Source: a virus
Length of the DNA stretch: 28,893 nucleotides
IMG/VR virus record: IMGVR_UViG_3300037585_004577
Coordinates: 1-28,893 of that record
Strand: one strand, 5' to 3'
Below are positions 2,950 to 28,893 of the stretch, piece after piece (position 1 is the stretch's first letter; the number at the start of each line of letters is the position of its first letter). The position numbers and the translations under genes are program-made. The notes beneath the pieces were generated by a model that did no database searches, was not told where the DNA came from, and saw only the letters and a program-made list of their open reading frames with translations.

Positions 2950-3228
2950 TTATACAGTTCGTTGTTTACTTAATTTATTAGCTTCTATTTCCCAAGGTAA
3001 AGCTCTATCCCCTTCTTTATGTAATTTACCATTCCAAAAGATTTTCCTATCAGCTGTTCTTAAAGCTTGTTGGTTTTTCCACCTAATGTATTCATCATTA
3101 TAATCTAATTTTCCCGTTTTGAACTGAAGCAAATGAGCTTCTTCATGAGCTTTCACTTTTGCTTCTTTTTCTTTAGATAATCCTGCTTTTATATCAATAG
3201 TTCCATCTTTATTAGCTCTACCTAATAC
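2950..3228 (-). other. C-terminal HEXXH zinc-metallopeptidase-like domain of the giant protein
   Basis: Residues about 2600-2691. The motif AHEEAHLLQF gives H2627, E2628 and H2631, the zinc ligands and catalytic Glu of zincins. About 48-50 residues downstream, LPWEIEANKL supplies a Glu (E2679 or E2681) able to act as third ligand, as in small gluzincin-type domains. The pattern and spacing are seen directly; peptidase activity and substrate are inferred. Candidate substrates are the virion proteins themselves, cell-wall peptides or a host protein after ejection. A Ser/Thr/Pro/Lys linker separates it from the rest, as if it were an independently folded cargo. Confidence 0.72.
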
Positions 3229-6200
3229 TCCTTCAGGCAATGCAAATTTTATTGGAGTTGATTTAACAGGGGTGCTTTTAATAGTTGTACTTGTAACGGT
3301 AGTGCTTTTTTTCTTAGTTTTTTTAGGGGGCGTTTCAGGCCATTGTACACCTACATTATAAGGTGACCACCCTAATGATAAAAATATAGATTGCCATGCT
3401 TCGGTTCTGTCATCAGACGCAGCTTTTAAGTTTTCAATCTTTTTAAATATTCTATCAGCTGGTACATTGGTTAAACCTGATACATAATTAGCTACAGCAA
3501 ATCCTTTATAAAAAGGATCATTTTTGTATTGTCTCCATGTTTCAAATTTCTGTGCTTCAACAATATCCCCAATTTTTTTACTCATTGGAGGTGAAATTGA
3601 AAGACCTCTTTGTATTAATTTTAAAGCACCATCCCTTATATATTTACCTTCTTTTCTTTTTTGGTATTGAGAATAGTATTCCATAGCAAGACTTTTAAGA
3701 GCTGCAGTTGTTGCTCCCGCAAATCCTATACCTCTAAGTAGACCATCTATAACACTATGAAGAGCATAATCAAGCTTTCTTTTTTCTTTTTCATCAAGCT
3801 CATCATCATCATCAGCTAATAAAGAAAATAACCCTTGTTGTAATGCTACAAATATTAAACTTTGTGCCATTCCATAATAAATAGCTTTAGACATATTTGT
3901 TTTAGCGTCTCCTCTTCTATAAATAAGATTACCTATAGCTTTTTTATGAGACCTAGCCAGCTGTAAAGGTGTATTAGCAAAAGCTAATATAAGTCTACCT
4001 ATATCTGATGATTGTTGTCTAGATATTCTATCAGGTCTGGAAGACTGTTGATGCTCTTCAGAAAGTTCACGAAGCTCTAACATAACTTGAGCATCTGCTT
4101 CCTTCTCGGTCATTGTACCTTCTTTAAGTAATTGGTTTAATCTATTTCTATACCAAGTAGCTCCACCAAAAGATATAGCATTACTATCACCCCATTGTGT
4201 AGGCTTAAACCCTAGTTCAAGTAGTTTTTTATTTAATTTTAAGAATAAATTACTTGGATTTGAATCAGCTATATCTGCCATGTTAACTTCAATAGCCATT
4301 CCTCCTCTTCTTTCTTTTAAAAATGGGGAGTTCCATATTTTAATATAATCTTTTAAAAACTGAGGAACATTAGCCATTGCTTTGGCCATCATAAAGGGAT
4401 TATTAAAACTCCAATTAGTATAGTTTACAATAGATAACTGCTGAAGAATTGCTGATCTCATATTAATAGCCATCACTGCACCAACAGATTGATTAATCCA
4501 GGTCATTACAGCGTTAAATTCTTTATCTTTCCCCTTTTTACGGTTTATACCCGTAGTCATTCTTTCTAAAATATTTTCCAATGCATTAGTAAAATCATTA
4601 CCATATGCTTGTTTTATTAATTTTAAATTTTGTGGAGAAAAAATCTGATTCTTATTATTTATAAAATCCTGTAAAAATATATCTCTTAAAGATGTGTTGG
4701 CAGCATTAGCTATATCTGTATCAATATTACCGCCTAACCATTCTTTAGTAATATTAGGATATCCATTATCTAATTTAGTTATTTTAGATAATTCCTCAGC
4801 AAAAGCTTTAAGTTTAGCATCGCCCTCAACTAAAGCTATTAGATCTTCAGTATCAGCTTTATTTAAACCTAAATCTTGTCCAGCTTTATTATATAGATAA
4901 GCTCTAACAGCTTGCTCTTTAGTATATAATCCTCCTAAAACCTTTTCGGCTAATAATTTTTTATTTTTAAATCTTTTCTTTAATGCTTTATAATCTTCGG
5001 CTAATGAAACTTTTGCGGCAGTCCATGCATCAATACCTTTAGCAAACGGATCTAATAAGTTTTCTTGGAACCATTTTTGTTGTTGTTCTCCTATTTTGCC
5101 ACTACCTAAAAAATAGGATAATAATCCAGCAAAATCATCAGCTCCAGGTGGAATATAAATATTAAATTTATTTAATATCCTGCCAAGCTTAGAAGGTTTA
5201 TTAGTTCTAATCAAAGAATCCATTTCGTCTTCTAAAGTTTTTTGGCCATCTTCTTTAGCTTGTTGCACTCTATTTGTTACACCTAAGTCGGTTAACATTT
5301 TTTCAGCAGCTTCAACATTAGCCTTAGAATCATCGGCAAAGAAAACGTCATTGTAACCCTCTGAAACTTTTTCAGCAATCCACATAGCTTTAGCGCCGGG
5401 AGTACCGTTTTCTATTCCAGATATATTTTTTAGTGGAATACTAATATTTAAAGTATTTCGTAAAAATTCTTGTATAGCTGCCGCTGCTTCCGCTGGGCGT
5501 GCTGTTAATACAAATACATCTCTATCGCCTAATGCCTCAGTAAATCTTTTAGCTAATGTAGCTAATGGGCCTTTAGTGCCTTCTTTTACTTTATTAAACT
5601 CAGAATAATCAAAAGTTGCACCGGACTCTTTTAAGGACTCATATTGTTCCGCGAACTCTGTAGCATTTAGACTACCTTCCGTTCCATCTGGGAGTGTGTA
5701 AAGTACCTTAGAATTGGTTTTAGCCAGCGTATCGTCGAAATCAAATACTCTAGCCTTCTTAGTTGGATTTTTTGGATTTGAAGCTTCACTTTTAGCTTTT
5801 CTAAGTATATTTAATTTTTCAACAATTTCATCAGTACTTAATCCGTCAATATCAATTCCAAACTCTTTTAATAAAGCATTATCAGTTTTTCTTGATTGTT
5901 CCTGCATTTGAGCAACACCTTTTTCTGAAAGAATGGCCAATTTAACTTGAGCAGGATTTTTTTCATTTCTTACTTCTTGAACAGAAACACCAACAAACTC
6001 GGCCCATTCTGCTTTAGTCATATAATTTTTTATTTTATTATATCCTGCATTAATAGCTTGACTTAAGCTTTTCCCTCCTTGATATGCCAATTTAACAGCT
6101 CTTAATCCACCTGCTAATAAATGGATAGGAACAGCAGCTAAATTCATTTGTAATGTGCCTTGTGAACCTGTAAGTTCAGTCAATTTAGCTATAGCCCTAT

Positions 6201-9200
6201 CAAGTAAATTTTCTACTTGATCAGAATTATTTGCTATTGATGCGGCATTAGAAGCAGCAATACCATCAATTGTATTAGGACTTTCAACATTATTTTCTTG
6301 AGCTAATGTTTTTCCTGTTAAAGGATTTATTATTGAATTCAAATCTATTTTAGCTTTGTCTAATCTAACTACTGGATTATTTAGAATAGAAAATCCTTTA
6401 GGTAGAACATCTGCTAACTTTGCCCTATCTAGTTTACCATCATCTTTTTTAGATAATTGAGTTTGATAATAGTTTTTTCTAATGTAAGGCATAATTGTTT
6501 CTACTTTATTGTTGGCTATAGCCCACATTAAAGTACCCCCAATAACTGATGCAGGAGGATTATGTTCTTCTCTATATTTTTCTCCAGTTCTATCGCTTAA
6601 TTTACCTTTTAAATCATATTCAAATATTTTAGATACATATTTAAATGGCGCAGATATTTTAATTAAACCACTTGTAGCTTGGTAACTTGAAGAAACAAAA
6701 AGCAATACATCCTCTAAAGGAACACCATATTCATGTACGGCATCTTGTAAAATAGTTGCAAAAGATTCTAAAGTGTTCATATTATCTTCTGCTCTTTTTT
6801 GATACTTTTCTATAAATGCTTTAGTAATTTTTTGCCCTTTAGATAGTTTAATTTGAAAGGCCTTCTTTAAATCTGGGTACTTTCCATCATTTTTTTTCGC
6901 AGCCTTTAATGCTGCTATATATGCAGGATCTGTAGTCCCATAATATAAGCTCCCCTTTGCAGCAACCCAATCTTCTCTACTTTCTAATAATTTTCTATTT
7001 TCTTTTGAATTTTCTTTTGCAGGTACCCATTCATTAGATGTAGTTTTATAATGTTTTTTCCCCTTAGAGTCTTTTATAAATTTACCATTAATAATTTTAC
7101 CTTTTTCATATGATCTAGCAAAATTTGCAAGTCTACCTGCTATAAAAACAATAGAAGGAATCTTACCTTTTTTAATTGCTTTTAAATTAGCAATTTGTTT
7201 TGCAATTCTATTAGTTTCATTAATTGTTATTTTATTAATTAGTCCTAATAATTTAGTTACAATATTAACATTTTTAACTGAAGATATTTCTTGTAATTGT
7301 TTTATTAATTTTGTAGTAAATCCTTTAGGAACTAATAAATTTAAACCTTTAGCAGCTTTTTCGAGCTCTTGAGTTTGTTGTTCTAAAAATTTATTTTTAA
7401 TATCAGCATCTGTAGTTAATGCATTTATTGCTTCTGCAGACCCAATAGAGGAGGCTACAGCTTCTATTAAATTCATTCTACGATCAGACATAGTATTTGC
7501 TGCTTTATCTTTAGCAGTATAATAATCTATGAATGCTTGTTGATCAATAGTTTCAAAAGCAGCTTTTACTAATTCACCATTTTTTTCAATTAAAAATCCA
7601 GCTTCAACAAAAGGATTTATCCCGGTCTTATTATTACGGGCCATTCTCATGCTTTCTACTGTTAGTGTATCATATAATGCTTTTGTATTCTTAGTTATAA
7701 AATCTGTAAATCTTTTATCTCCTTTTTTATCTTTACCAAAAAATTCTTTTAAATCCCCATATAACAAATCTTTAAAAGCCTTGCTTATTTCTCCTTTAAA
7801 TTTTCTAGAATCAATTTTACTTTTTAAAGTAGATAAGATAGTAGGAATGCTAGCTTTAAGTTTTTTAGTTATATTTTTTGGTAAATCTAAAAGCCTACTA
7901 GTTTCTATAATTTTATTTGCTTCATTTTCTTCCTCAATTTCTTCAACAATTGTTTGAGAAATCTTATCAGTTAACTCTTCCGTAAATTCATCATTTTTAC
8001 CTGTAGCCTGGTCTATTAATCTATTAGCTCTTAAATTTAATCTATTGCTAATAAATTTATCTAAAGTTTGTAAACTAGGATCAAATTTTTCCTCAGACTT
8101 ATCTTTTTCTATTATCATTTCTTGAGCTGCAGATTGCAAGTCTTTAATAAAATCTTCTCTTGTTAAAGTTCCAAGTTTGTCTTTAGATGTTCTGTCATAT
8201 AATCTTTGGGCTATTTTTTCAAAAATTGGTGCTGCAATTTTATTAAATTCATTAACAAATTTATTTTCACCTCTTTGCGTTGTAGGTAATTTTCCTTCTT
8301 TGTCTATAGTTGAATCATATAATTTTTGTAATTCAGTATATTCGCCTTTAGTTTTATCAATTTTTTCTATAAAACTATTTCTTTTTTTATCAAAAATAGT
8401 TTTAAGTCTTTTGTATTGTTTATTATACTCAGTTGGTGTTATTTTTTTAGATTTTAACGCATCACTTAATTCAGCAGACTTAGTAATAAAAGCTTGATTT
8501 AATTCTTTTATAGAGTTAGCTTTCCCTATAGTTGTTGGGATAATGCTAAAAAATCCTGATTTTTCAGGTACTAAATATTTTATTTTATTTTGAACATTTT
8601 TTATTTTTAAATCTAATAATTTTATTTCTTCAGCAGTAGTAGCTTTTTTTCTACGCTCTTGTAAATTTAATAAAGTATTAGATAATGTTTGAATTTGTTT
8701 GTCTATATATTCATTACGACCCATTTTCCCTTTAGTAACATTATTTTCATACTCTTCTATTGAAAAAGTTTGAGGATCAAAATTCTTTTCGCTTAATCTA
8801 GTTAATATAGAATTTTTTTCATCTTGATAGGCATCCCATTTTCTTGCTTGAATATCAAGATTATCTTCTCTATTTTTTTCACTAAGTTTAGGGTTATTAG
8901 CTATTTTTATAGCCCTTCTCTTAACATTATTTTGTAAATCATATATTTCAAAAAGCCTTTTTTTCTCTTTAGTAGTAGCATTATCAAAGCTTTCATTAGC
9001 ATTTCGCATTATCTTCTTTTGCTTAGCATCGATTTCAGCGATATTATTTAAGATGTCTTTTCTTTCAGTTTCCGTTAAATTATCATTATTAAGTTCATTA
9101 TTTAACTCTTTAATTAATTGATTACCAGTTTGAATTTGATTTCTTACATCTTCACCCCAAAACACTTTACTTAAAGCTCTACCAGCCAATGGTGCTTTAT

Positions 9201-11025
9201 ATATAAATCCGCTCATTACAGCTCCGCTTACAAATGAATCAGCTAGACCTCTAGTTAATTCAACATCTTTGTCTAATAGATATTTATCAGTCATGTTTTC
9301 GGCTAAAGTTGCCGCAACTTCCGAGCCACCTTCTTGGAACATGTCTTTAGTCCATCTAAGATAATCATTTGTAAGATATCTTTTTACTGCCTCAATAATA
9401 GATTGATCACCTTTAACAGCCCTCATTACACCTTTTACTTGTCCTAAGGTTATTTTTTCTGAAAGATATTCAGCTCCCCCTACTATAGCTGGAGCTAATA
9501 ACAATTCAAGCCCACTATAAGTTGGCCCGCCCGGTAAACCCATTTCTTTTTCCATTTCTAGAAATTTACCACCTCCAGCAGAGGCGCCTAGCATTGTTAA
9601 AGAATATGTAGGCATAGCCATCATAGTTGCCATTATTGGAGCTTGATTACCAATTAATTGTGCCATCCAACTTGCAACGCCACCCATACTATCTATCTCT
9701 GTTACTTCTTGATTCTTTGCAAAAGTACCCCTAATATTTTCAGAAACATTATCTAAGAAACCATTAACATCTTTAGTTTCCTCACTAGCTAAAAGATTAA
9801 ATGCAGGCCCAGCTAAAGCAAACACCCAATCTGGCATATCATATTTATTGCCAGTAATTCCTCTTGCTAAATTATCCGCAGCAGTTTTTAAATATCTCGG
9901 AATAGCTAATCCCCCATTAACTAATTCTATAGTAGATGCGGCAAGCGATCCTAAAGCTATACCAGAAAAACTATAATCTCTTTTTATTACATCAAGATAT
10001 TCATCATATTTGCCTATTTCTTTAGAATTAACTTTTAAATCATCAAAAATATCTTCACTTTTTTTAATAATAGCTTCATTTTCTAAAACTATATTTGCAA
10101 GTTGTTTTTTGGCCTCATCTAAGTTTTCTTGGGTTTTATAATCACCTTGAGCTAAATTAATAGCTTGTAATTCATTAGTTTTTATTTTAGTACTTAATTT
10201 ATTAAGATCTAATTTATTTTTCTGTATCTTTTCTTCCGTAAATTTTTTATCACCTTTAGCAAGAGTGGCTTGCCTTTCTTTAAATGCTTTCATTTCAGGA
10301 TTTAAAGCGGGCATTATGTATGGAGAAGCTATAGAAGCATATGTTTTTAGATCACCCCAATCAAGTGCTGGATTTTTACGTAAATAATGATCTGCAAAAT
10401 TAACATTTGCATTTTCTTGTTCTTTAGCAAGCCAAATATTTTTAGCGGTTTCTAAAATTTCTTCTTCAGATGGTTCTACTAAATTTGTTCCGCCATTTTG
10501 TTCATTTAATAATTTTTTAGCCTCTTCAATTGCTTCAGTTCTTCCTTCATTTTCAGGATCCCGTTTCACATAAGATGCGCCCGGATTTAAAGGACTTCCG
10601 CTTGCACTAGGCACATATACTTGATTATCTTCAGCCCAATTAATTGAAAACAATTCTTCTGCTTTAGGAATAAGATTTTCTTCATGATCTAAAAGAGCTG
10701 TTTTTTGTTTTTCTAACCACTCTTGTGATTGAGTTTTAGGGCCTTCTTCAACAATTTCCTCTTCAATAATTTCCTCTTGAGGGGCATATGGAACTCCTAG
10801 GTCTTTTTTTGCTTTAGGATATCTTTCGCCAACAACTTCAACCTCTCTTAATTGGTTTTCTGCACCTACGCCGATTTGCACTTCTTGGCTATTGACATTA
10901 CCTTCAGCTATCATGTCCGCTCTTCTTGCATCTACTGCAGCTTGTATTTCCTCATCCGTCAACCCTTGATCCATTAAGCTTAAAGCCAAGTGTTCAAGCT
11001 CTAGCATTTGTGCTTTATTTAGCAT
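2950..11025 (-). CDS. Giant multidomain internal/ejection-type virion protein with HAD and metallopeptidase-like domains
   Basis: A 2691-residue protein taking 28% of the window. Reading from the N-terminus: a small helical start; an acidic stretch (about 80-95, EEIIEEEIVEEG); charged helices; a hydrophobic zone (about 350-620) with several membrane-type helices rich in Gly, Ala and Met; long Lys/Glu helices (about 640-1300); a mixed segment containing EEHNPPASVIGG (about 1486-1497); a complete HAD domain (about 1755-1925); and a conserved-looking helical region (about 1950-2560). That last region includes QQSSDIGRLILAFANTPLQL and a second hydrophobic zone followed by DDDDELDE, and recalls the large polyvalent proteins of marine phages. 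A Lys/Thr/Ser/Pro linker (about 2566-2594) leads to an HEXXH domain at the end. By position and build it is probably packaged in the head and ejected with DNA. The frame has no interruption. No RNA polymerase signature was found. Confidence 0.9.
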   Translation of the reverse strand: MLNKAQMLELEHLALSLMDQGLTDEEIQAAVDARRADMIAEGNVNSQEVQIGVGAENQLREVEVVGERYPKAKKDLGVPYAPQEEIIEEEIVEEGPKTQSQEWLEKQKTALLDHEENLIPKAEELFSINWAEDNQVYVPSASGSPLNPGASYVKRDPENEGRTEAIEEAKKLLNEQNGGTNLVEPSEEEILETAKNIWLAKEQENANVNFADHYLRKNPALDWGDLKTYASIASPYIMPALNPEMKAFKERQATLAKGDKKFTEEKIQKNKLDLNKLSTKIKTNELQAINLAQGDYKTQENLDEAKKQLANIVLENEAIIKKSEDIFDDLKVNSKEIGKYDEYLDVIKRDYSFSGIALGSLAASTIELVNGGLAIPRYLKTAADNLARGITGNKYDMPDWVFALAGPAFNLLASEETKDVNGFLDNVSENIRGTFAKNQEVTEIDSMGGVASWMAQLIGNQAPIMATMMAMPTYSLTMLGASAGGGKFLEMEKEMGLPGGPTYSGLELLLAPAIVGGAEYLSEKITLGQVKGVMRAVKGDQSIIEAVKRYLTNDYLRWTKDMFQEGGSEVAATLAENMTDKYLLDKDVELTRGLADSFVSGAVMSGFIYKAPLAGRALSKVFWGEDVRNQIQTGNQLIKELNNELNNDNLTETERKDILNNIAEIDAKQKKIMRNANESFDNATTKEKKRLFEIYDLQNNVKRRAIKIANNPKLSEKNREDNLDIQARKWDAYQDEKNSILTRLSEKNFDPQTFSIEEYENNVTKGKMGRNEYIDKQIQTLSNTLLNLQERRKKATTAEEIKLLDLKIKNVQNKIKYLVPEKSGFFSIIPTTIGKANSIKELNQAFITKSAELSDALKSKKITPTEYNKQYKRLKTIFDKKRNSFIEKIDKTKGEYTELQKLYDSTIDKEGKLPTTQRGENKFVNEFNKIAAPIFEKIAQRLYDRTSKDKLGTLTREDFIKDLQSAAQEMIIEKDKSEEKFDPSLQTLDKFISNRLNLRANRLIDQATGKNDEFTEELTDKISQTIVEEIEEENEANKIIETSRLLDLPKNITKKLKASIPTILSTLKSKIDSRKFKGEISKAFKDLLYGDLKEFFGKDKKGDKRFTDFITKNTKALYDTLTVESMRMARNNKTGINPFVEAGFLIEKNGELVKAAFETIDQQAFIDYYTAKDKAANTMSDRRMNLIEAVASSIGSAEAINALTTDADIKNKFLEQQTQELEKAAKGLNLLVPKGFTTKLIKQLQEISSVKNVNIVTKLLGLINKITINETNRIAKQIANLKAIKKGKIPSIVFIAGRLANFARSYEKGKIINGKFIKDSKGKKHYKTTSNEWVPAKENSKENRKLLESREDWVAAKGSLYYGTTDPAYIAALKAAKKNDGKYPDLKKAFQIKLSKGQKITKAFIEKYQKRAEDNMNTLESFATILQDAVHEYGVPLEDVLLFVSSSYQATSGLIKISAPFKYVSKIFEYDLKGKLSDRTGEKYREEHNPPASVIGGTLMWAIANNKVETIMPYIRKNYYQTQLSKKDDGKLDRAKLADVLPKGFSILNNPVVRLDKAKIDLNSIINPLTGKTLAQENNVESPNTIDGIAASNAASIANNSDQVENLLDRAIAKLTELTGSQGTLQMNLAAVPIHLLAGGLRAVKLAYQGGKSLSQAINAGYNKIKNYMTKAEWAEFVGVSVQEVRNEKNPAQVKLAILSEKGVAQMQEQSRKTDNALLKEFGIDIDGLSTDEIVEKLNILRKAKSEASNPKNPTKKARVFDFDDTLAKTNSKVLYTLPDGTEGSLNATEFAEQYESLKESGATFDYSEFNKVKEGTKGPLATLAKRFTEALGDRDVFVLTARPAEAAAAIQEFLRNTLNISIPLKNISGIENGTPGAKAMWIAEKVSEGYNDVFFADDSKANVEAAEKMLTDLGVTNRVQQAKEDGQKTLEDEMDSLIRTNKPSKLGRILNKFNIYIPPGADDFAGLLSYFLGSGKIGEQQQKWFQENLLDPFAKGIDAWTAAKVSLAEDYKALKKRFKNKKLLAEKVLGGLYTKEQAVRAYLYNKAGQDLGLNKADTEDLIALVEGDAKLKAFAEELSKITKLDNGYPNITKEWLGGNIDTDIANAANTSLRDIFLQDFINNKNQIFSPQNLKLIKQAYGNDFTNALENILERMTTGINRKKGKDKEFNAVMTWINQSVGAVMAINMRSAILQQLSIVNYTNWSFNNPFMMAKAMANVPQFLKDYIKIWNSPFLKERRGGMAIEVNMADIADSNPSNLFLKLNKKLLELGFKPTQWGDSNAISFGGATWYRNRLNQLLKEGTMTEKEADAQVMLELRELSEEHQQSSRPDRISRQQSSDIGRLILAFANTPLQLARSHKKAIGNLIYRRGDAKTNMSKAIYYGMAQSLIFVALQQGLFSLLADDDDELDEKEKRKLDYALHSVIDGLLRGIGFAGATTAALKSLAMEYYSQYQKRKEGKYIRDGALKLIQRGLSISPPMSKKIGDIVEAQKFETWRQYKNDPFYKGFAVANYVSGLTNVPADRIFKKIENLKAASDDRTEAWQSIFLSLGWSPYNVGVQWPETPPKKTKKKSTTVTSTTIKSTPVKSTPIKFALPEGVLGRANKDGTIDIKAGLSKEKEAKVKAHEEAHLLQFKTGKLDYNDEYIRWKNQQALRTADRKIFWNGKLHKEGDRALPWEIEANKLSKQRTV
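5251..5763 (-). other. HAD-superfamily phosphatase-like domain inside the giant protein
   Basis: Residues about 1755-1925. All four HAD motifs occur in order: DFDDT (D1762 nucleophile, D1764 acid/base, T1766), VLTARP (T1841), a Lys in the GAKAMWIAEK segment (K1879 or K1886), and FFADDS (D1898-D1899, Mg binding). An insert between motifs I and II (about 1770-1830) would form a cap. The full motif set implies an active Mg-dependent phosphatase or nucleotidase. The substrate cannot be read from the sequence; nucleotide or polynucleotide ends are plausible in a phage protein. Confidence 0.85.
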
Positions 11026-11058: not shown

Positions 11059-12705
11059 TTATGATGCCCAAATCTTAGAATTTGCCTTAGACCTTTCAAT
11101 AAAGCTTTGAGCTTTTTTCTTTTTGAGTTCTTTTATTTGATTTTGAATTGATATTATAATTCTACCGCCATTTTGTTCCCATGTGTTATCTACTTCTGTC
11201 TTCTCTTTTGCAGTTTTACCTTCTTTAAACCTTTCTTTCCAAAAAATTTCAATATGATCAGGGTCATTAAAATTAAATTCTTTAACTTTTGAATGCCTTC
11301 TAAACTCATATTTATCAGTTGCATTTCCCTCTTTATCTGGAATATTTACTTTGTAAGGTTTGCCATAAGCATGCTGATAAGTTAATACTCCATTATCTGA
11401 AAATTCAATATTTGTTATGTCCTCCCCACCAGACAGATTTGCAGGCATTTCGCCCATTATAGATATTATATCTTTATCCGCTAAACCTTTTACAAACCTT
11501 TCAGTTCCTTCTTGTATAGATATATTAAACTCTGAAGGTCCTGGTTTAAAAGGAATGGTATCAGCATATTTTTGTCTATCAAATTGTGTTTTAAATACAC
11601 TAACATACTCCTTCATTAAATCTTTTGTTACCGCCTCCTTAGCTTCAACTTCACTCATTTGATATGGTTTAGGTCCAAATCTATTATCAATTTGCAATCT
11701 TTTTGCAACAGATTCAGCATCTGTTCCTGGGTATTCCTTTAACATAGCCTTTAACATCTCCTCTGAAACAATACCTTGCTCCTGAACGGAATTTAATTTA
11801 GCCTTCCACATAGCCTCATAAGTAGCGGCATCCAATCCCATAGTATCTAATGCAAACGCCTCATCACCTTTTTCGCCATATTCGGCAATTTGTTCAGTCA
11901 TAGCGTCGCTTATCGCTTTTCCTTGTACATCATCGCTCCATACTTGTCGGTCTTGTGGTTTACCCTCCGCTCTATATGCATTTTGTCTTTTTCTCCAATC
12001 TTTATCAAACCCTACTAGATTGTCAGTTATAGATGACATCTTTGCAGTAGTTTCCGGTAAATGTGCTTCAAAATCTTGTAAATCTAAATTTATTTTTTCA
12101 CCATTAGAAGTAGTACCTCTTAATACCATTCTATCACCTTCAAAAACAATTCCCCCATCAAATTCATCATTTAATAAATCCGCATACATCTGTTGGAACT
12201 TAGGTTTCATAGATTTAGAAACATCATCTTGTACTGAGCTTATAGCGAATTGGTTTATTCTATTATTTAATAAAGCTTTAGCATTTTTCATCATCGGAAC
12301 ATGACGCAATAATTTCTTCATTTGCACCGATTGAGTTCTAGCATCCATATCTTTATCTTGAGCTATATTTACATAAACATCCATCAGTTGGTTAGAAGTA
12401 GCATCCCATATATTGTTAAGATAATCCGAAGTTGCTGATTCGCCTTTTTTATTTTTGTAAGTTTCTGGAATATAAAATGCATCAGTTACTTTATCTTCAA
12501 GTATCCTAGTGGCCTTAGTTTGGGCATCGGCCTGCGTTTTTTCTGCCGCATATGCTTGTTTTTGTTTAAGAATTGCTGCGTCCCTTATTTGTTCAGCTTG
12601 CTTATTAAATAATGCTGCATTCTTATCCCCAGCGGCCGCTGCGCTAGCACCAGAATAAAAATCATTAGGATTTATTCTTGCTCTTTTAGATAATGGTATA
12701 GCCAT
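11059..12705 (-). CDS. Probable internal virion protein
   Basis: A 548-residue, mostly helical, charged protein. The N-terminus (about 15-70) is Ala, Gln and Lys rich (GASAAAAGDKNAALF then long helices). The middle has several Met-rich helices (KKLLRHVPMMKNAKALLNN). A short beta-containing region (about 190-215, around GGIVFEGDRMVLRGTT) and a C-terminal part with mixed strands (around 430-470) precede a basic helical end. There is no signal peptide, membrane segment or enzyme motif. It lies between the 517-residue internal protein (4-base gap) and the giant protein (33-base gap), the place where short-tailed phages keep their set of ejected core proteins, and its size suits a middle member of such a set. 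The role is inferred from position and composition only. Confidence 0.82.
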   Translation of the reverse strand: MAIPLSKRARINPNDFYSGASAAAAGDKNAALFNKQAEQIRDAAILKQKQAYAAEKTQADAQTKATRILEDKVTDAFYIPETYKNKKGESATSDYLNNIWDATSNQLMDVYVNIAQDKDMDARTQSVQMKKLLRHVPMMKNAKALLNNRINQFAISSVQDDVSKSMKPKFQQMYADLLNDEFDGGIVFEGDRMVLRGTTSNGEKINLDLQDFEAHLPETTAKMSSITDNLVGFDKDWRKRQNAYRAEGKPQDRQVWSDDVQGKAISDAMTEQIAEYGEKGDEAFALDTMGLDAATYEAMWKAKLNSVQEQGIVSEEMLKAMLKEYPGTDAESVAKRLQIDNRFGPKPYQMSEVEAKEAVTKDLMKEYVSVFKTQFDRQKYADTIPFKPGPSEFNISIQEGTERFVKGLADKDIISIMGEMPANLSGGEDITNIEFSDNGVLTYQHAYGKPYKVNIPDKEGNATDKYEFRRHSKVKEFNFNDPDHIEIFWKERFKEGKTAKEKTEVDNTWEQNGGRIIISIQNQIKELKKKKAQSFIERSKANSKIWAS

Positions 12706-12709
12706 AATA

Positions 12710-14263
12710 TTAAATTATTACTTGTTTAAATTCAACGTCTATTTTATTATAATCTACAATATCGAATCCATCGTTAGTCACGTAGGTAGCTTCAGGAGAT
12801 ACTTCATCGGACATTACTCCTTGAAAAAATCCAAATCCATGTTTATTAGGGTTTTTATATTTAAAAATATAAATATTCAGTCCAGAATTAGATTGCCCTA
12901 TTATTTGGATATTTTTCTTTAATCGTCTATCTGAAAGTGCCGTATTCGCCATTGAACCTGCTGCATCTATAGTGCTACCCCAGCCTGCTTTTATTTGGGC
13001 TTGCTGATATGCTACTTTATCTGAAGCATCTTTTAATTGAGCTCCTTTAATTCCCGCAATATCACTTAATTGACTATATTGATTATTTTGTTGAGCGGCA
13101 GCACCTTGTCCAATAGTGACGTCAGTTTTCCATTGATTTTCTGCTGCCCATTGGTTAGCGTTAGTTTGAGCGCCAGCATTAAACATTTCAGCGCCAACAT
13201 CAGCTCCAAATTGAGTTTGCAAAAATTGATTTTGTGAAGCAGTGTCTGTAAGAGCAAATTGATTTTGAGCCCCAATATTAAATTGTTCCATTGCTTGGTC
13301 TGCCCCAAATTGGGTCATTGCAAATTGATTTTGAGCTTGTGCTTCAAATCTTCTTTGCTGGTTAATTGCATCTGCAGAAAACCTATTAGCTTGATTTCTT
13401 GCATCCGCCCCAAATTGTGCTGCCTGATTAGCTGCAGCTGCTCCAAATTGTGCCGCTTGATTTACGGCTCCTACATTAAATTGTGATTGCCCTAAATCAA
13501 ATTGTGAGGCCAAATTACCTTGCGCTAATTGAGCTCTTTGTAATTCAGATTCACCTTGAGCCCTCATCATTTCATTTTGTTTTACTTGTCTATCAATATC
13601 TGAAGATATGCCAGCTTTAGATTTTGCTGCTGCCGCTGCAAGGGCGGTTGCACCACCAGCCCCAGTTCCTGCTTGTGCAGCTAAATCTTGACTAGCGGCT
13701 AAAGATTGATCAGCTTCTTGAGCGGCCATTTCTGATGCAGCTGTGGAAACTTGTAAGTTAGACATTGTATTACTTAAACCTGTAGCTGCCCCTCTTTGTA
13801 ACCCCCCTATACTGGTTTGGCCAGCAGTATAACCTTGGCTATCATAACCTTCACCAGTATAGCCTTTAGCATTGTACCCTTGAGCCATTCCTAATTTATT
13901 AAGTCCTTGCATTTGTGATGGATCACCAGCTAAAATAGCCTTCCCTAATGTAGGGGCTTGAGCTTTCTGTATTTCATATTCTTGAGATTGCAAATCCTCA
14001 AAGGTATTATCAAATTTATGTTCTTCTAAATTTTTAACTGCCGCATCCAGTTCTGCTTGCTTTTCCTTTTCAGTTTTCTTTTTCTTTTTAATACCTTTAG
14101 ACGCAATAGCAGTTTTAGCACCTGCCCCAACTAAAGCTATACCACCAGCAACAAGAGCCGCCGTAGCTGCACTAAGACCAAACGTCCCATAAACTAAATT
14201 ATTTACAGCTGTTTCAGCTATAAACAATGAAGTCTCTTGTAAAATTTGTGAAATTAAAATCAT
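12710..14263 (-). CDS. Internal virion protein with 11-residue repeats and an S74-type intramolecular chaperone tail
   Basis: A 517-residue protein built in clear blocks. Residues 22-54 are hydrophobic, Ala/Gly rich and membrane-like, followed by a poly-Lys patch (about 57-70). Four GY pentapeptides lie at 129-148. An Ala/Gln-rich helical part (150-260) leads into 11-residue repeats (268-378). The last 74 residues (from S444) are an S74/endosialidase-type chaperone domain: SDRRLKKNI, then GLNIYIFKY, GFFQGVMSDEV and DYNKIDVEF. In this family the peptide bond before the Ser is cut by the domain itself after folding. The chaperone is usually on trimeric fibres; here it is joined to a protein that looks like a small internal core protein (membrane-active N-terminus, helical body). 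It may therefore release or trimerise a virion-internal helical assembly. The S74 match is strong; the internal-protein role is inferred from composition and neighbours. Confidence 0.88.
   Translation of the reverse strand: MILISQILQETSLFIAETAVNNLVYGTFGLSAATAALVAGGIALVGAGAKTAIASKGIKKKKKTEKEKQAELDAAVKNLEEHKFDNTFEDLQSQEYEIQKAQAPTLGKAILAGDPSQMQGLNKLGMAQGYNAKGYTGEGYDSQGYTAGQTSIGGLQRGAATGLSNTMSNLQVSTAASEMAAQEADQSLAASQDLAAQAGTGAGGATALAAAAAKSKAGISSDIDRQVKQNEMMRAQGESELQRAQLAQGNLASQFDLGQSQFNVGAVNQAAQFGAAAANQAAQFGADARNQANRFSADAINQQRRFEAQAQNQFAMTQFGADQAMEQFNIGAQNQFALTDTASQNQFLQTQFGADVGAEMFNAGAQTNANQWAAENQWKTDVTIGQGAAAQQNNQYSQLSDIAGIKGAQLKDASDKVAYQQAQIKAGWGSTIDAAGSMANTALSDRRLKKNIQIIGQSNSGLNIYIFKYKNPNKHGFGFFQGVMSDEVSPEATYVTNDGFDIVDYNKIDVEFKQVII
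12713..12934 (-). other. S74 intramolecular chaperone domain
   Basis: From S444 to the C-terminus of the 517-residue protein. SDRRLKKNI is the diagnostic start of the family, with the predicted self-cleavage just before S444. The domain is short (74 residues): it lacks the long helical tail found after it in endosialidases and many fibre proteins. Sequence match is clear; cleavage in this short form is inferred. Confidence 0.88.
13130..13462 (-). repeat. 11-residue (33-base) degenerate tandem repeats
   Basis: Within the 517-residue protein, units beginning NQ recur every 11 or 22 residues from about 268 to 378, for example NQAAQFGAAAA, NQAAQFGADAR, NQANRFSADAI, NQQRRFEAQAQ and NQFALTDTASQ. 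Phe holds a fixed position in most units, and two units are double length. An 11-residue period equals three helical turns and is typical of right-handed or straight helical bundles. DNA copies have diverged, so this is a protein-level repeat. Confidence 0.85.
13820..13879 (-). repeat. Four tandem GY pentapeptides
   Basis: Residues 129-148 of the 517-residue protein read GYNAK, GYTGE, GYDSQ, GYTAG: Gly-Tyr every five residues, four times. The segment is polar and probably flexible, linking the basic N-terminal part to the Ala/Gln helices. It could be a surface-exposed contact or assembly strip; function unknown. Confidence 0.8.
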
Positions 14264-24580: not shown

Positions 24581-26995
24581 TTATCTAGGTTCAAACCTTG
24601 ATAGATCAATACCACCTAAAACATCATTACCTTTTGATTCAAAAGATTTTTTTGGTTTACCAGTATCTGGTGGGCCAGCAATACTACTTACTGAAGCCTT
24701 CACGTTTGCAACCTCTTTTTGCGTTTCTGATTGCTTATCTACTAGCTCTTTTTGAGCTTGTAATTCTAATTGTTTTAATTGAACATTTAAATCAAATTCA
24801 AATTGCATTAATTCTCTTTTTGATCTAGCTTCAACTTCAAGCTTTTTAATTTCAAATTCTATATCAGCTTTTCGATATTGAATTTTAGATTCTGTTTTAA
24901 CTTGCTCTGCTTGTGCTTTAGCATTTTCTACAACAACTTGCGCTTGGCCTTGTGCTTCCGCTTGCGCAGCGCTGGCAGCTTGAGCTTGTTGTTGATCAGC
25001 TTGTTGTTTTTTAATTCTTCTAAATTTTAGTAGTTGATTTGCTAATTGAATATTTTTTATTTCTCTTACATCAATTGCATCTTCTAAAAATATATTTTCT
25101 TTTGATAAAGCCATTTGTATGTTAGCTTCAAGAAGGGTTTTTTCTTGTTCATCTGGTGCTAATTCTAAAAATATACCAAAATCATGAAGATGTAAATCTT
25201 TCATTTCTTCTAATGAACCTACTGAAAACGGTCCCAATGCACCTATAAATGCTTCTTTAGTCGGGTGGTATTCTAAGGCATCTTTAAATCGTAATGCAAT
25301 ACATTGTGCTAATCTCGTAGTAATATTCATACTACTATCTAGTATATGTCTTGTGGCTACATTACTATTTGCCGCTGCTAATTTTTGGACACCTACTAAT
25401 GAATTAGGGTCTGGATCAGAACCATCTCTAGCTTCATTCAAACCAGTTATATCTCTAATCATTTGTATATATTGATTATAAGCAGTAACTAAAATTTGAA
25501 TTTGATTTCCCCCACCACCGGGTAATTCTGTAATAGGAATTTTTCCTAAATTTTGATCACCTTCTGTGGTTAATGATCTACCAATAATAGACCCTGTCTG
25601 GAAATACATATTAAGTGCTTCCTGAGGATTATAATTTGTGCCATTACCTAAATCAATTTCAGCTAGTCCATCTGCATCCAAATATACCCCCGATGGCGTC
25701 ATTTTTTGTATAGCCTGTTGCATTTTTAAATGCGTTAATTGGATCAAATCCGCATAAGGCATCATTTTAGCTACTAATGAATTAATAGCGCCTCTATATA
25801 TTCTAGGAGCACTTACTACATAATTCATTAATACTAAATTAGTATTAGAATTTGGCCTTACTATATTAGATGCTTTTTCCCATTGGAGCATTGTGTTAGT
25901 TCCTAATATTAATACTCCTTCATAAACTGTTTCTACGGCTTCTGCTACTTTTTCAAATCTATTTCTTTTATCTTTAGGAGGGTCAAAAGAATCATCTTTT
26001 TGTATTGCTTTACTAGCACCTGTAGATGTTTCTTTTATTTTATAAACATTATTTTCCCAAGTTTTCCAATTAAAATATAATACAGAGATTATATTATTGT
26101 CATTATTCCAGGAAGCATTAGTATAATCATTATAAGATGTCCAATCATAACTTTGTTTAGTTAATTCTTGAAATTCCTCATTAGTTACTCCAGGAAATTG
26201 TTTTTTAAGTTCATTTAATTTTACTCTTTTAACTTCACCAAAATAATAACAATCACTAAAATTTGGATTTTCTGTATAAGACCATATAAGATTAGCAGGA
26301 TCAACATAATCAAGTTTTATGCCATCTGTATTATTAAAAGTACATTTTCCAGCGCCTACACCAATAACAGCTAAATCATAATCTATTCTTCTTTTTATTT
26401 CATCATATTTATTAGAGAGCATTACATTATTTATACCTTCTTCTTCCGCTATTTCAATACCTTGCTTGTAATTTAAATTCATGTATAATTGGAATTCTTC
26501 TGAATTTAAAGGTAATTCCTCTTTAGGGACAGCCCTAGGTGCTTTGCCCAATTCTGTTTCCATTATATCTAATAGGGCATCTGCGGCCATATCTTTTTCT
26601 ATATTCTGAACAAATTTAGTTTTTCTATCTGTAGCAATAGGATCTTGCCCTACAGCTTTAATAGAAAACAACCTATCTTGCATACCGTTAACAACAATAT
26701 CCACAAACTTAGGAATAATTGGAACTGGTTTCCAGTCTAAATTTAAATAGGATAAATCTCCATTAACTGAAAATTCATCTTTATATTTTCCAATTGCCTG
26801 TTCACCTCTTGCATATAATCTAAGGTTATGGTATTCGTTAGCAGATTGATAAAATCTTCCGATATTACCATCTCTGTTAAACCAATCTTGTTCAATAGCT
26901 TTAGCTACTCTAAACCCATAATCTAAAGACTGCTTTTCAGCATCTGAAACCGCTTGGCTTGGAAATTGACTATATTGCCCTGTTGTTTGTGTCAT
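24581..26995 (-). CDS. Portal protein
   Basis: An 804-residue protein that forms the 12-subunit ring through which DNA is packed and ejected. The N-terminal half has the alpha/beta layout of portals (DWFNRDGNIGRFYQSANEY, then LNLDWKPVPIIPKFVDIVVNGMQD) and a basic/aromatic middle (YNDYTNASWNNDN, SVLYFNWKTWENNVYK). The segment SPSGVYLDADG-like to GLNEARDGSDPDPNSLVGVQ (about 470-545) is typical of the clip and stem region. The C-terminal 150 residues (about 658-770) are a long Gln/Ala/Glu coiled coil, the barrel that extends into the head, ending in a flexible Pro/Gly/Lys tail. Length is normal for large podovirus portals. The start lies 2 bases after the terminase stop (TAA, AT, ATG), so the two are tightly coupled. 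It is the best-placed gene in the head module. Confidence 0.88.
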   Translation of the reverse strand: MTQTTGQYSQFPSQAVSDAEKQSLDYGFRVAKAIEQDWFNRDGNIGRFYQSANEYHNLRLYARGEQAIGKYKDEFSVNGDLSYLNLDWKPVPIIPKFVDIVVNGMQDRLFSIKAVGQDPIATDRKTKFVQNIEKDMAADALLDIMETELGKAPRAVPKEELPLNSEEFQLYMNLNYKQGIEIAEEEGINNVMLSNKYDEIKRRIDYDLAVIGVGAGKCTFNNTDGIKLDYVDPANLIWSYTENPNFSDCYYFGEVKRVKLNELKKQFPGVTNEEFQELTKQSYDWTSYNDYTNASWNNDNNIISVLYFNWKTWENNVYKIKETSTGASKAIQKDDSFDPPKDKRNRFEKVAEAVETVYEGVLILGTNTMLQWEKASNIVRPNSNTNLVLMNYVVSAPRIYRGAINSLVAKMMPYADLIQLTHLKMQQAIQKMTPSGVYLDADGLAEIDLGNGTNYNPQEALNMYFQTGSIIGRSLTTEGDQNLGKIPITELPGGGGNQIQILVTAYNQYIQMIRDITGLNEARDGSDPDPNSLVGVQKLAAANSNVATRHILDSSMNITTRLAQCIALRFKDALEYHPTKEAFIGALGPFSVGSLEEMKDLHLHDFGIFLELAPDEQEKTLLEANIQMALSKENIFLEDAIDVREIKNIQLANQLLKFRRIKKQQADQQQAQAASAAQAEAQGQAQVVVENAKAQAEQVKTESKIQYRKADIEFEIKKLEVEARSKRELMQFEFDLNVQLKQLELQAQKELVDKQSETQKEVANVKASVSSIAGPPDTGKPKKSFESKGNDVLGGIDLSRFEPR

Positions 26996-26997
26996 AT

Positions 26998-28893
26998 TTA
27001 TTTTATTAACTGACTTCTTGATCCTTTATTATTATAGTGTGAAAACATAAAATCAAGTTTTTTTACTGTTCTTTCTATATTTGGTCTATACATATGTTTT
27101 CTACACGCCATTAATGCTAGACCGCTACTAATTGACGCATCGTGAGCTGTTCTACGATTTATATCAAATCTAGCCCAATCTTCTAGTGTTCTTTGAAAAA
27201 ACATGTTTCCATGATTTTCCCTTATTTTACCCACATATTCCTCTATGTAAGACTCTATCGCTGCTGCATGAGCTTGTTTTATATCTTCTGAAGTATTAGG
27301 TATACCCCCTAACTCTAACTCGGTTTTTGACAATTTTGATCTTAATTTGTCAGGACGATTCATTGAAAATCCTCTATAACCTCTTCTTTTAAAATGATAT
27401 AATAATCTTGGTTTATTATTTTCTGCTAATAATGGCATCCCATAAAATACACAAGCCATTAGCACATCTTCAAAAAATATCTCTGCAGTTTGTGGTCTAG
27501 AAATATATTCTAAAAAGAATTTAGTACTAGGCACTTCCGGATCCATAGAAAAGGTTGTTAATCCATGTAAAGCTCCCTTAGAACCCCCACCACCAACTGT
27601 TCCTGAAATATCATAAGGATCACATCCAAAAGCTCCTAATCCATCATTAGCTGGATAGCTAATACCATTTTTATTTATTATATTATTTTGTAAATTATTT
27701 GGCGGTATCCAAGAAAGCAAAAATCTTCCTTTAAGATTTGGTTGCCAAATTACTTTACTATCTTTTATTCCGCCTCTCCATCCAAAATTTCCTTTAACTA
27801 TATGACCTTTTTTAGTCATTTCTTCATTAAAATCAATTTGTTCGTAAATCTTAGTTAGATTAAATAAGGAATTAAAAGTTTCATCTCTAAATGCATGCTT
27901 CTCTGATCTTGGAAACTGCCTATAATATTCATTTAAAGCATCTGAATCTCTTTTTAAGCCTTCAACTTCATTTTCCCAGTGGTTAATGACTCCCGTAGAG
28001 ATGTATTCACCATCAATTCCCTCAACCGCTTCTGGTGGTGTATCGAATACAGGGAAACCATACTTATTGATAAACCCTTCGAATCCCCACTCCATAGGTA
28101 TGAACAAAGCATATAATCCACTTGTAGTCTGGCCATTGCGATTTCTATTTGTGACATCTGAATTATAATATAGTTTTTTAAAATTATCCCCTCCTTTATC
28201 TAATGCATTAGAGGTAGATCCCATCATACATTTTCCAACTATTTTGGATCCGAGCCTGAGGCACGTTTTTGTGACCCTCCAGTTATTGAGGATATTGTCG
28301 GGACGTTCCCATTTCCCGGATTCGTCATGAACGAGGAGTTGTAACTTCTCCCCATCGTACGAGTTATCTCCGGTGTTCTTCCAATCGATGGTTGTATCCA
28401 ATCCTTCCTGTATCTCCTCGGTCTCCTCGAAGGAGGTGGCCCGAATGGTTTTTCTTGTAAGTCTTCTTGACGGGACTTTGTAGGATAATTCAGTTTTCGG
28501 CCTTTCCATACCATCCTGTATTGGTTTAAAGAAAAAGGGATAATTAGTTGAGATCGGTACAACCTTATCTGTGAACATCTTCTTAGCATCTGCTCCAGTC
28601 TTAGATAAGATCCCAAACCTAGAGTCCTTTGAAGTCGTAGCCTGGTTGACACACTCAGCTGATGCCATGAAACTAAACCCAGACCGTCTATTCTTAAGAT
28701 AGCACATTCCGTAACATCTCCTATCCAATTTGCACGCCTCCCAAAAGTAGAAAAAAATCCTATTTGCTTGTCTAAAATCTGGTGATCCCACATCAATTTT
28801 TGTCCAGTTGAGATAGATATAGTGTGATCCTGTAATGTAGCACGGCTCACCGTTGCACATGAACCAATAACCATCATTCCTGTAATTAAACTC
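26998..28893 (-). CDS. terL: Terminase large subunit, N-terminus cut by the window edge
   Basis: The DNA-packaging motor: ATPase plus headful or site-specific nuclease. The frame is open to the right edge (11 further codons upstream of the ATG at 28860), so the true start is outside. Numbering from that ATG: a Walker-A-like segment KNRRSGFSFMAS (about 56-67, deviant but typical for phages); the Walker B LLVHDE (about 175-180, D179-E180); and motif III GKCMMGSTSN (209-218). The nuclease part follows with D414 in FGCDPYD, an acidic FFEDVLMA (about 462-469), and D574 in HDASISSG. All main motifs are present in order. The portal gene follows after 2 bases. Part of the ATPase region (about 28240-28740) is far richer in G+C than the rest of the window. 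Confidence 0.93.
   Translation of the reverse strand, partial: EFNYRNDGYWFMCNGEPCYITGSHYIYLNWTKIDVGSPDFRQANRIFFYFWEACKLDRRCYGMCYLKNRRSGFSFMASAECVNQATTSKDSRFGILSKTGADAKKMFTDKVVPISTNYPFFFKPIQDGMERPKTELSYKVPSRRLTRKTIRATSFEETEEIQEGLDTTIDWKNTGDNSYDGEKLQLLVHDESGKWERPDNILNNWRVTKTCLRLGSKIVGKCMMGSTSNALDKGGDNFKKLYYNSDVTNRNRNGQTTSGLYALFIPMEWGFEGFINKYGFPVFDTPPEAVEGIDGEYISTGVINHWENEVEGLKRDSDALNEYYRQFPRSEKHAFRDETFNSLFNLTKIYEQIDFNEEMTKKGHIVKGNFGWRGGIKDSKVIWQPNLKGRFLLSWIPPNNLQNNIINKNGISYPANDGLGAFGCDPYDISGTVGGGGSKGALHGLTTFSMDPEVPSTKFFLEYISRPQTAEIFFEDVLMACVFYGMPLLAENNKPRLLYHFKRRGYRGFSMNRPDKLRSKLSKTELELGGIPNTSEDIKQAHAAAIESYIEEYVGKIRENHGNMFFQRTLEDWARFDINRRTAHDASISSGLALMACRKHMYRPNIERTVKKLDFMFSHYNNKGSRSQLIK
28240..28740. 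other. G+C-rich island inside terL
   Basis: By hand count, 28261-28440 has 91 G+C of 180 bases (51%), while 28141-28200 has 15 of 60 (25%) and typical late-operon lines sit near 25-33%. Codons shift too: GAG, ACC, TCC, TTC and CAG replace the usual A/T-ending forms. The reading frame continues intact. The stretch covers the ATPase core between the Walker A and motif III regions. Base composition seen directly; origin by recombination is inference. Confidence 0.75.

Follow-up and report, generated by a model that had tools for sequence, protein, structure and literature searches.

Background

Ejected multi-enzyme proteins of phages are already known as a class, the 'polyvalent proteins': giants encoded in late operons, in which unrelated enzymes are joined, the zincin is the commonest domain and domains are swapped (Iyer et al. 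2017, PMC5512222). Close to these stand the virion RNA polymerases (vRNAPs) of phages N4 and DEV (gp50 and gp71), ejected giants that are each the third member of a trio and carry a membrane-associated N-terminal part and a C-terminal HExxH with a helical region (PMC12633501, PMC10925440); in the C-terminal domain of the N4 enzyme, the HExxH subdomain is paired with a large helical region (PMC12633501). In crAss001, gp45, gp46 and gp47 were detected in the virion by mass spectrometry (MS) and proposed to be ejected as cargo (PMC10172136). Here we describe a gene for a 2691-residue protein, referred to below as the giant, at positions 2950-11025 of a 28.9-kb virus record (IMG/VR IMGVR_UViG_3300037585_004577, positions 1 to 28,893; the window, which is a fragment). 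The giant is probably the largest member of a three-protein ejection set, a counterpart of the N4 vRNAP with modular enzymes and no detectable polymerase, and a phage polyvalent protein.

The nearest working model for the giant is the N4/DEV vRNAP, with which it shares its size, its place as third member of a trio and the C-terminal HExxH with a helical region, and would share ejection and a membrane-associated N-terminal part. It differs in that a HAD domain stands in place of the RNA polymerase, for which sequence searches against Pfam, PHROG and NCBIfam gave no match (the fold was predicted for residues 1746-2691), and in that the zincin lies at the very end rather than before the helical region. 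With the polyvalent proteins it shares the late-operon setting, size, zincin and domain swapping, and the fold of its conserved helical region, the C-module, matches giants so named. What sets it apart from them is that no Pfam LPD domain was matched, a HAD phosphatase of the Pnkp type (neither 'phosphatase' nor 'haloacid' occurs in the main text of the polyvalent survey, PMC5512222), a lineage with a crAss-type muzzle, and an N-terminal core that has been recognised so far in flavobacterial phages only. The crAss001 genes resemble the locus in lying after the muzzle gene as three consecutive genes that end in a giant; gp47, in contrast, is annotated as RNA polymerase-associated and has no significant similarity to the window giant by profile.

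Two sets of cultured phages provide syntenic giants with a homologous N-terminal core. The first is gp101 of Cellulophaga phages phi40:1 and phi38:1 (1691 amino acids (aa) in both), which in phi40:1 is backed by tandem mass spectrometry (MS/MS) of virions. The second is gp074 of Tenacibaculum phage Gundel_1, which also retains part of the C-module (8.5e-11) and differs from the window protein in having an internal HEFGH, no HAD motif and no terminal zincin.

Results and discussion

A constant C-terminal frame with exchangeable enzymes

The first-pass annotation, made from the letters of the DNA, had proposed a single unbroken frame of 2691 residues. The frame is indeed uninterrupted from its ATG start and lies on the minus strand, which had been left unstated; the plus strand of the same interval is full of stops. 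It had further remarked on a conserved-looking helical region between the HAD and HEXXH domains, and this region, the C-module, turned out to be the most conserved part of the giant in a conservation profile. Our comparison set of 91 complete homologues was collected through the C-module, whose presence in 90 of the 91 therefore reflects selection of the set; the evenness of its conservation does not. AlphaFold2 (AF2) prediction of residues 1746-2691 on 83 sequences reached a predicted local distance difference test score (pLDDT) of 85 and a predicted template modelling score (pTM) of 0.68; a first C-module model, on 20 sequences, had a pLDDT of 58, and its fold search against the PDB was disregarded in favour of the 83-sequence model. 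Structural matches of the C-module are predicted phage giants named PolyVal ART, ART-PolyVal-like, MuF or large polyvalent domain (E 1e-8 to 1e-7).

Around this fixed frame, cassettes are exchanged or lost: this holds for the N-terminal part as well as for the HAD domain. The HAD domain is present in 51 of the 91 relatives, and on the C-module tree its state changes at least ten times, against two changes for each zincin. Relatives L125 and L146 are separated by a single clean HAD block of 171 aa, with 54 of 60 and 44 of 60 flanking residues identical, while L216 and L204 are 93% identical in the C-module and 22% identical upstream of it. Several unrelated enzyme domains are thus joined in one chain as in polyvalent proteins (HAD and terminal zincin in the window giant), and relatives add an internal zincin, a Zeta/AAA_33 kinase or LPD14. 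The first-pass idea that the giant is more than a channel is supported, because its enzyme domains act like interchangeable cargo mounted on an unvarying frame.

A further exchange was noticed in two Cellulophaga phages. Phage phi14:2 (L224) g067, residues 1544-1682, and phi13:2 (L006) gp127, residues 588-727, share a stretch of 140 aa at 81% identity with a GNAT-like motif (YRRKG[IL]AS). The g067 protein occupies the cargo position of a true crassvirus, was detected by virion MS/MS and has no other BLAST match to the phi13:2 giant; the stretch is a cargo domain that two lineages of Cellulophaga phages have recently exchanged. Homology of the window giant to gp47 of crAss001 was not detected. 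A weak score for phi14:2 g067 (21 bits) lies above those of the profile's reversed controls but is not claimed as a match. Weak matches of the broad profile were rejected because reversed sequences reach E values of 4.5e-7.

The HAD phosphatase and the zincins

Both enzyme domains named at first pass are real. The HAD domain carries FDFDDT (1761-1766), LTAR (1840-1843) and DD (1898-1899), which correspond to the DxDxT, [S/T]xR and DD motifs of the 3'-phosphatase of T4 Pnkp (PseT) and are kept across the family alignment except in L124, whose HAD carries an insert. It matches PHROG 415, 'polynucleotide kinase' (E=1e-5); of the 33 HADs in the family alignment, 28 hit the Pfam family DUF2608, the best at 7e-7. 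The giant itself gave no credible family in Pfam or NCBIfam and only weak PHROG domain matches. Hits to cwf21 and Trnau1ap fell below the cut-off and were dropped. A direct LPD38 search of the giant gave no match, but neither did its controls.

When compared with the PDB by VIA-align, a search that returned HAD-type matches only and barely tested the C-module, T4 Pnkp was the closest solved fold (Z 12.9, root-mean-square deviation 2.5 over 128 residues). The first seven rows are all T4 Pnkp and Pnkp1 (Z 12.9-11.8); the lead is small, since other HAD folds score 11.4 and below. Because the closest resemblance is to polynucleotide 3'-phosphatases, a likely job of the domain would be the healing of nuclease-cut nucleic-acid ends.

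Alternatively, the delivered enzymes may attack host targets rather than repair ends or process the giant, the zincin as an effector protease and the HAD as a nucleotide or protein phosphatase. This variant of the ejection reading is possible, if on the unlikely side. Iyer et al. regard metallopeptidases as possible effectors and zeta-toxin kinases in polyvalent proteins as cell-wall-precursor kinases (PMC5512222), Zeta_toxin/AAA_33 domains occur in our relatives, and other HAD folds follow closely behind Pnkp (Z 9-11). Set against this are the rank of Pnkp as the best structural group for the HAD (rows 1-7) and the kinase found inside the HAD of some relatives, a combination of activities that Pnkp also has.

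That kinase is a P-loop segment that appears to be lodged between motif I and motif II in L151, L155, L171 and L188, with a Pfam AAA_33/Zeta_toxin match shown for L151 and L155. The nested layout, seen in a few relatives, is unlike the tandem arrangement of T4 Pnkp, in which the kinase is fused before the phosphatase.

The HEXXH of the giant reads HEEAH. In all 27 members with a terminal domain the motif lies 60-72 residues before the C-terminus, and the downstream Glu, E2679, sits in a PWExxA that is invariant in 21 aligned members; the region 2600-2691 is predicted to fold compactly. The giant therefore has the domain that is the most common hub of polyvalent proteins. Instead of or besides the terminal motif, 80 of the 91 relatives have an internal HEXXH with its own invariant Glu, so that 89 of 91 giants hold at least one zincin. 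No homology between the internal and terminal zincins was detected, and PDB profile searches with the C-module and both zincins returned nothing significant. The two zincins are anticorrelated (p=2e-4), a value that is not phylogenetically independent, with only two changes of each on the tree.

Packaging and proposed ejection

That the giant is carried in the head had been suggested from its place behind the 517- and 548-residue proteins, both of which are present. In each of seven relatives, cultured or circular, the structural block closes with a gene for a giant of 1691-3859 aa. The products gp097-gp101 of phi40:1 are annotated 'experimental MS/MS proteomics', and packaging is well supported because the syntenic homologue gp101 is among them; the window giant shares its N-terminal core with the phi38:1 protein, which is as long as gp101. 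In BLASTP, residues 333-743 match phi38:1 (2.7e-11), phi13:2 (5e-10), Gundel_1 (4e-10), elemoE (2e-8) and Panino (2e-6), and phi38:1 matches other family members down to 4e-16. Residues 1-420 are poorly conserved. The trio order 517/548/2691 next to the tail genes, the arrangement of podoviral ejection proteins, is conserved in 43 loci, and in sufficiently long loci the gene order is muzzle, a protein of about 400 aa, one of about 500 aa and the giant.

The first-pass annotation went further and pictured an ejected protein that crosses membranes and delivers enzymes. Packaging and the enzyme cargo agree with this picture; membrane-type helices in the strict sense are not supported. We infer ejection, membrane passage and activity by analogy with T7, N4/DEV and crAss001, as follows. 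As the largest protein of the proposed ejection trio (517, 548 and 2691 aa), the giant is probably packed in the head; it would leave by way of the portal and the muzzle, either ahead of the DNA or together with it. Its N-terminal core (about residues 333-743) and the two smaller proteins would probably help to build a conduit across the envelope, like gp14/15/16 of T7 and gp71-73 of DEV. The C-module (1935-2560) is the constant frame, and the HAD, in most relatives the internal zincin and sometimes a P-loop kinase are the exchangeable enzymes that would be brought into the cell. There, a likely job of the HAD would be to heal nucleic-acid ends that host nucleases cut as infection begins, and the terminal zincin would most likely clip the giant or a partner, freeing domains after delivery.

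Several points weigh against this interpretation. The direct virion evidence comes from the phi40:1 homologue rather than from the window phage; overlap with that MS-verified type of homologue is limited to the N-terminal core, and no C-module, HAD motif or HEXXH was detected in proteins of the phi38:1/phi40:1 type. A structural match alone does not establish the substrate of the HAD: Arg176 of T4 Pnkp, which follows motif I and is essential there, corresponds to K1773 in the window, in a column that is not conserved in the family, and a 3'-phosphatase substrate is for this reason a guess. The lack of a Pfam LPD match in the window giant has been mentioned. Finally, a 19-residue Kyte-Doolittle (KD) scan of the whole protein found no canonical transmembrane (TM) helix. 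Of 200 composition-preserving shuffles, 184 equal or exceed its highest mean, 1.48 (2386-2404), and the mean maximum over the shuffles is 1.81. The zone 421-620 is merely less polar, with a grand average of hydropathy of 0.01 compared with about -0.5 to -0.7 in the large flanking segments. In 22 of the 91 relatives, by contrast, a stretch does score at least 1.6.

An internal structural or scaffold protein, shaping the head interior or plugging the portal, would also fit the late structural operon and the virion MS of the homologue. Its enzymes would then be at work while particles assemble, with the zincin serving, for instance, to mature other proteins by cleavage, and not in the new host. 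There are precedents: DdrB of phage P1 is processed before packaging, and the metallopeptidase region of N4 is needed for encapsidation (PMC5512222). We nevertheless judge this unlikely, given that gain and loss of the HAD between near-identical C-modules is more in keeping with a dispensable cargo directed at the host than with a role in assembly, and that the crAss001 proteins encoded at the corresponding place are ejected in the published model (PMC10172136). Very long helical proteins of structural operons are often tape measures, and one relative matches TMP_2 at 3e-4, but a tape-measure-like or external tail protein is very improbable here, the tail being of the podovirus type (the window shows a portal and a muzzle but no tail-tube genes, and under the microscope Gundel and Calle have podoviral particles, PMC8776804), the C-module matching polyvalent giants, and low-complexity helices giving chance matches according to the reversed controls.

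On the reading of the giant as ejected cargo, a widespread marine phage family may inject an end-healing phosphatase, with a nested kinase in some members, as a cassette that can be removed from a conserved ejection frame, and repair of damage by host-defence nucleases would then begin before phage genes are expressed; this we offer tentatively and regard as rather doubtful. Should the HAD indeed mend the ends of RNA or DNA, the phage would bring an anti-defence enzyme with it ahead of time instead of making one after infection. We found no description of the giant's marine family in the open-licence literature, which is weak evidence of absence, and a large marine family with a removable phosphatase of the nucleic-acid-repair type appears to be undescribed. 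With at least 571 viral contigs matched by one profile, of the C-terminal third, the family is barely covered by collections of phage isolates, Pfam or PHROG. Its fixed module with interchangeable enzymes lets one ask which enzymes marine phages bring into Bacteroidota before transcription.

The phage and its relatives

The source is a marine podovirus that has not been cultured, a relative of the gut crassviruses; it has a muzzle of the crassvirus type and falls in the lineage of the flavobacterial phages phi38:1, Gundel and elemo. Its terminase is 66% identical to that of MW202828 (Manatee Spring) and 46% identical to those of the Flavobacterium phages elemo, and its muzzle, which bears the crAss muzzle domain of Crassvirales-type virions (PF25731), matches only phages of Flavobacterium, Cellulophaga, Tenacibaculum and Maribacter and MW202828. 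The whole giant as query gave no match in a close-relative search of viral contigs or in tblastn against phage isolates, and the way into the family was a search with the muzzle protein, which has relatives on at least 92 IMG/VR contigs; a relative of the giant was found in all 25 related marine contigs tested. The C-module occurs on 20 contigs of metagenome-assembled genomes, eight of them in Bacteroidota bins, which are weak host evidence.

All large genes between 2208 and 28860 lie on the minus strand. The late operon encodes, in order, the terminase large subunit, portal, a capsid-type structural protein, ring-type structural proteins, the crAss-type muzzle, a short tail-fibre protein, the 517- and 548-aa proteins and, last, the giant, which hence lies among late virion genes as polyvalent proteins do. 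The 548-aa protein diverges fast across loci. A disordered linker sits between the C-module and the terminal zincin. Coordinates are collected in Table 1.

Table 1. Features of the giant and of the neighbouring late genes in the window
Feature	Position	Strand	Remarks
Giant protein gene	2950..11025	-	2691 aa; single open frame; proposed ejected (gp16/vRNAP-like) polyvalent protein
N-terminal core, residues 333-743	8797..10029	-	Common to cultured flavobacterial phages; contains weakly hydrophobic zone 421-620
Charged helical zone, residues 621-1300	7126..9165	-	33% charged residues; moderate conservation at about 840-1200
HAD phosphatase domain, residues 1746-1930	5236..5790	-	DxDxT, TAR and DD motifs; PHROG 415; T4 Pnkp Z 12.9; removable in relatives (clean 171-aa indel, L125 vs L146)
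C-module, residues 1935-2560, all-helical	3346..5223	-	54% mean column identity (20 sequences, terminal zincin included); pLDDT about 90; structural matches to polyvalent giants
Uncharged hydrophobic helix in C-module (second hydrophobic zone), residues 2386-2404	3814..3870	-	KD mean 1.48; below TM threshold
Terminal compact zincin, residues 2600-2691	2953..3228	-	HEXXH 2627-2631 and E2679; invariant in alignments; AF2 pLDDT about 92; SprT-like Foldseek matches (earlier model)
548-aa protein, proposed ejection trio member 2	11059..12705	-	Position conserved, sequence divergent; phi40:1 gene at same position (gp100) detected by MS/MS
517-aa protein, proposed ejection trio member 1	12710..14263	-	Homologue upstream of giant in 43/43 loci; N-terminal hydrophobic stretch 24-42, KD 1.43
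Muzzle protein (crAss_MUZ), 1356 aa	14993..19063	-	Pfam PF25731 1.7e-19, PF25729 7e-9
Portal (24581-26995) and terminase large subunit (26998-28860)	24581..28860	-	phrog_6547 4e-128, phrog_6681 2e-150

Some minor observations accompany these genes. In four records (G039, G035, G032 and G034) the muzzle relatives lie in open frames of 2220-2423 aa, compared with 1356 aa in the window, which suggests large insertions in the muzzle. Record G029, the source of L154, has at 28881-30704 a terminase homologue that can be aligned only across stops (2 TGA, 9 TAG and 14 TAA); a frame shift, a degraded gene, an intervening element and misassembly are candidate causes. The plus strand of the window at 1-1193 encodes the C-terminal part of a ribonucleotide reductase large subunit, which converges on the structural operon and is cut by the window end. 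The 517-aa protein contains a repeat rich in Gln, Ala and Phe (AQFGADARNQANRF...); at its end lies a Peptidase_S74-like chaperone motif that is truncated and scores weakly (E 0.006), unusual in an internal protein.

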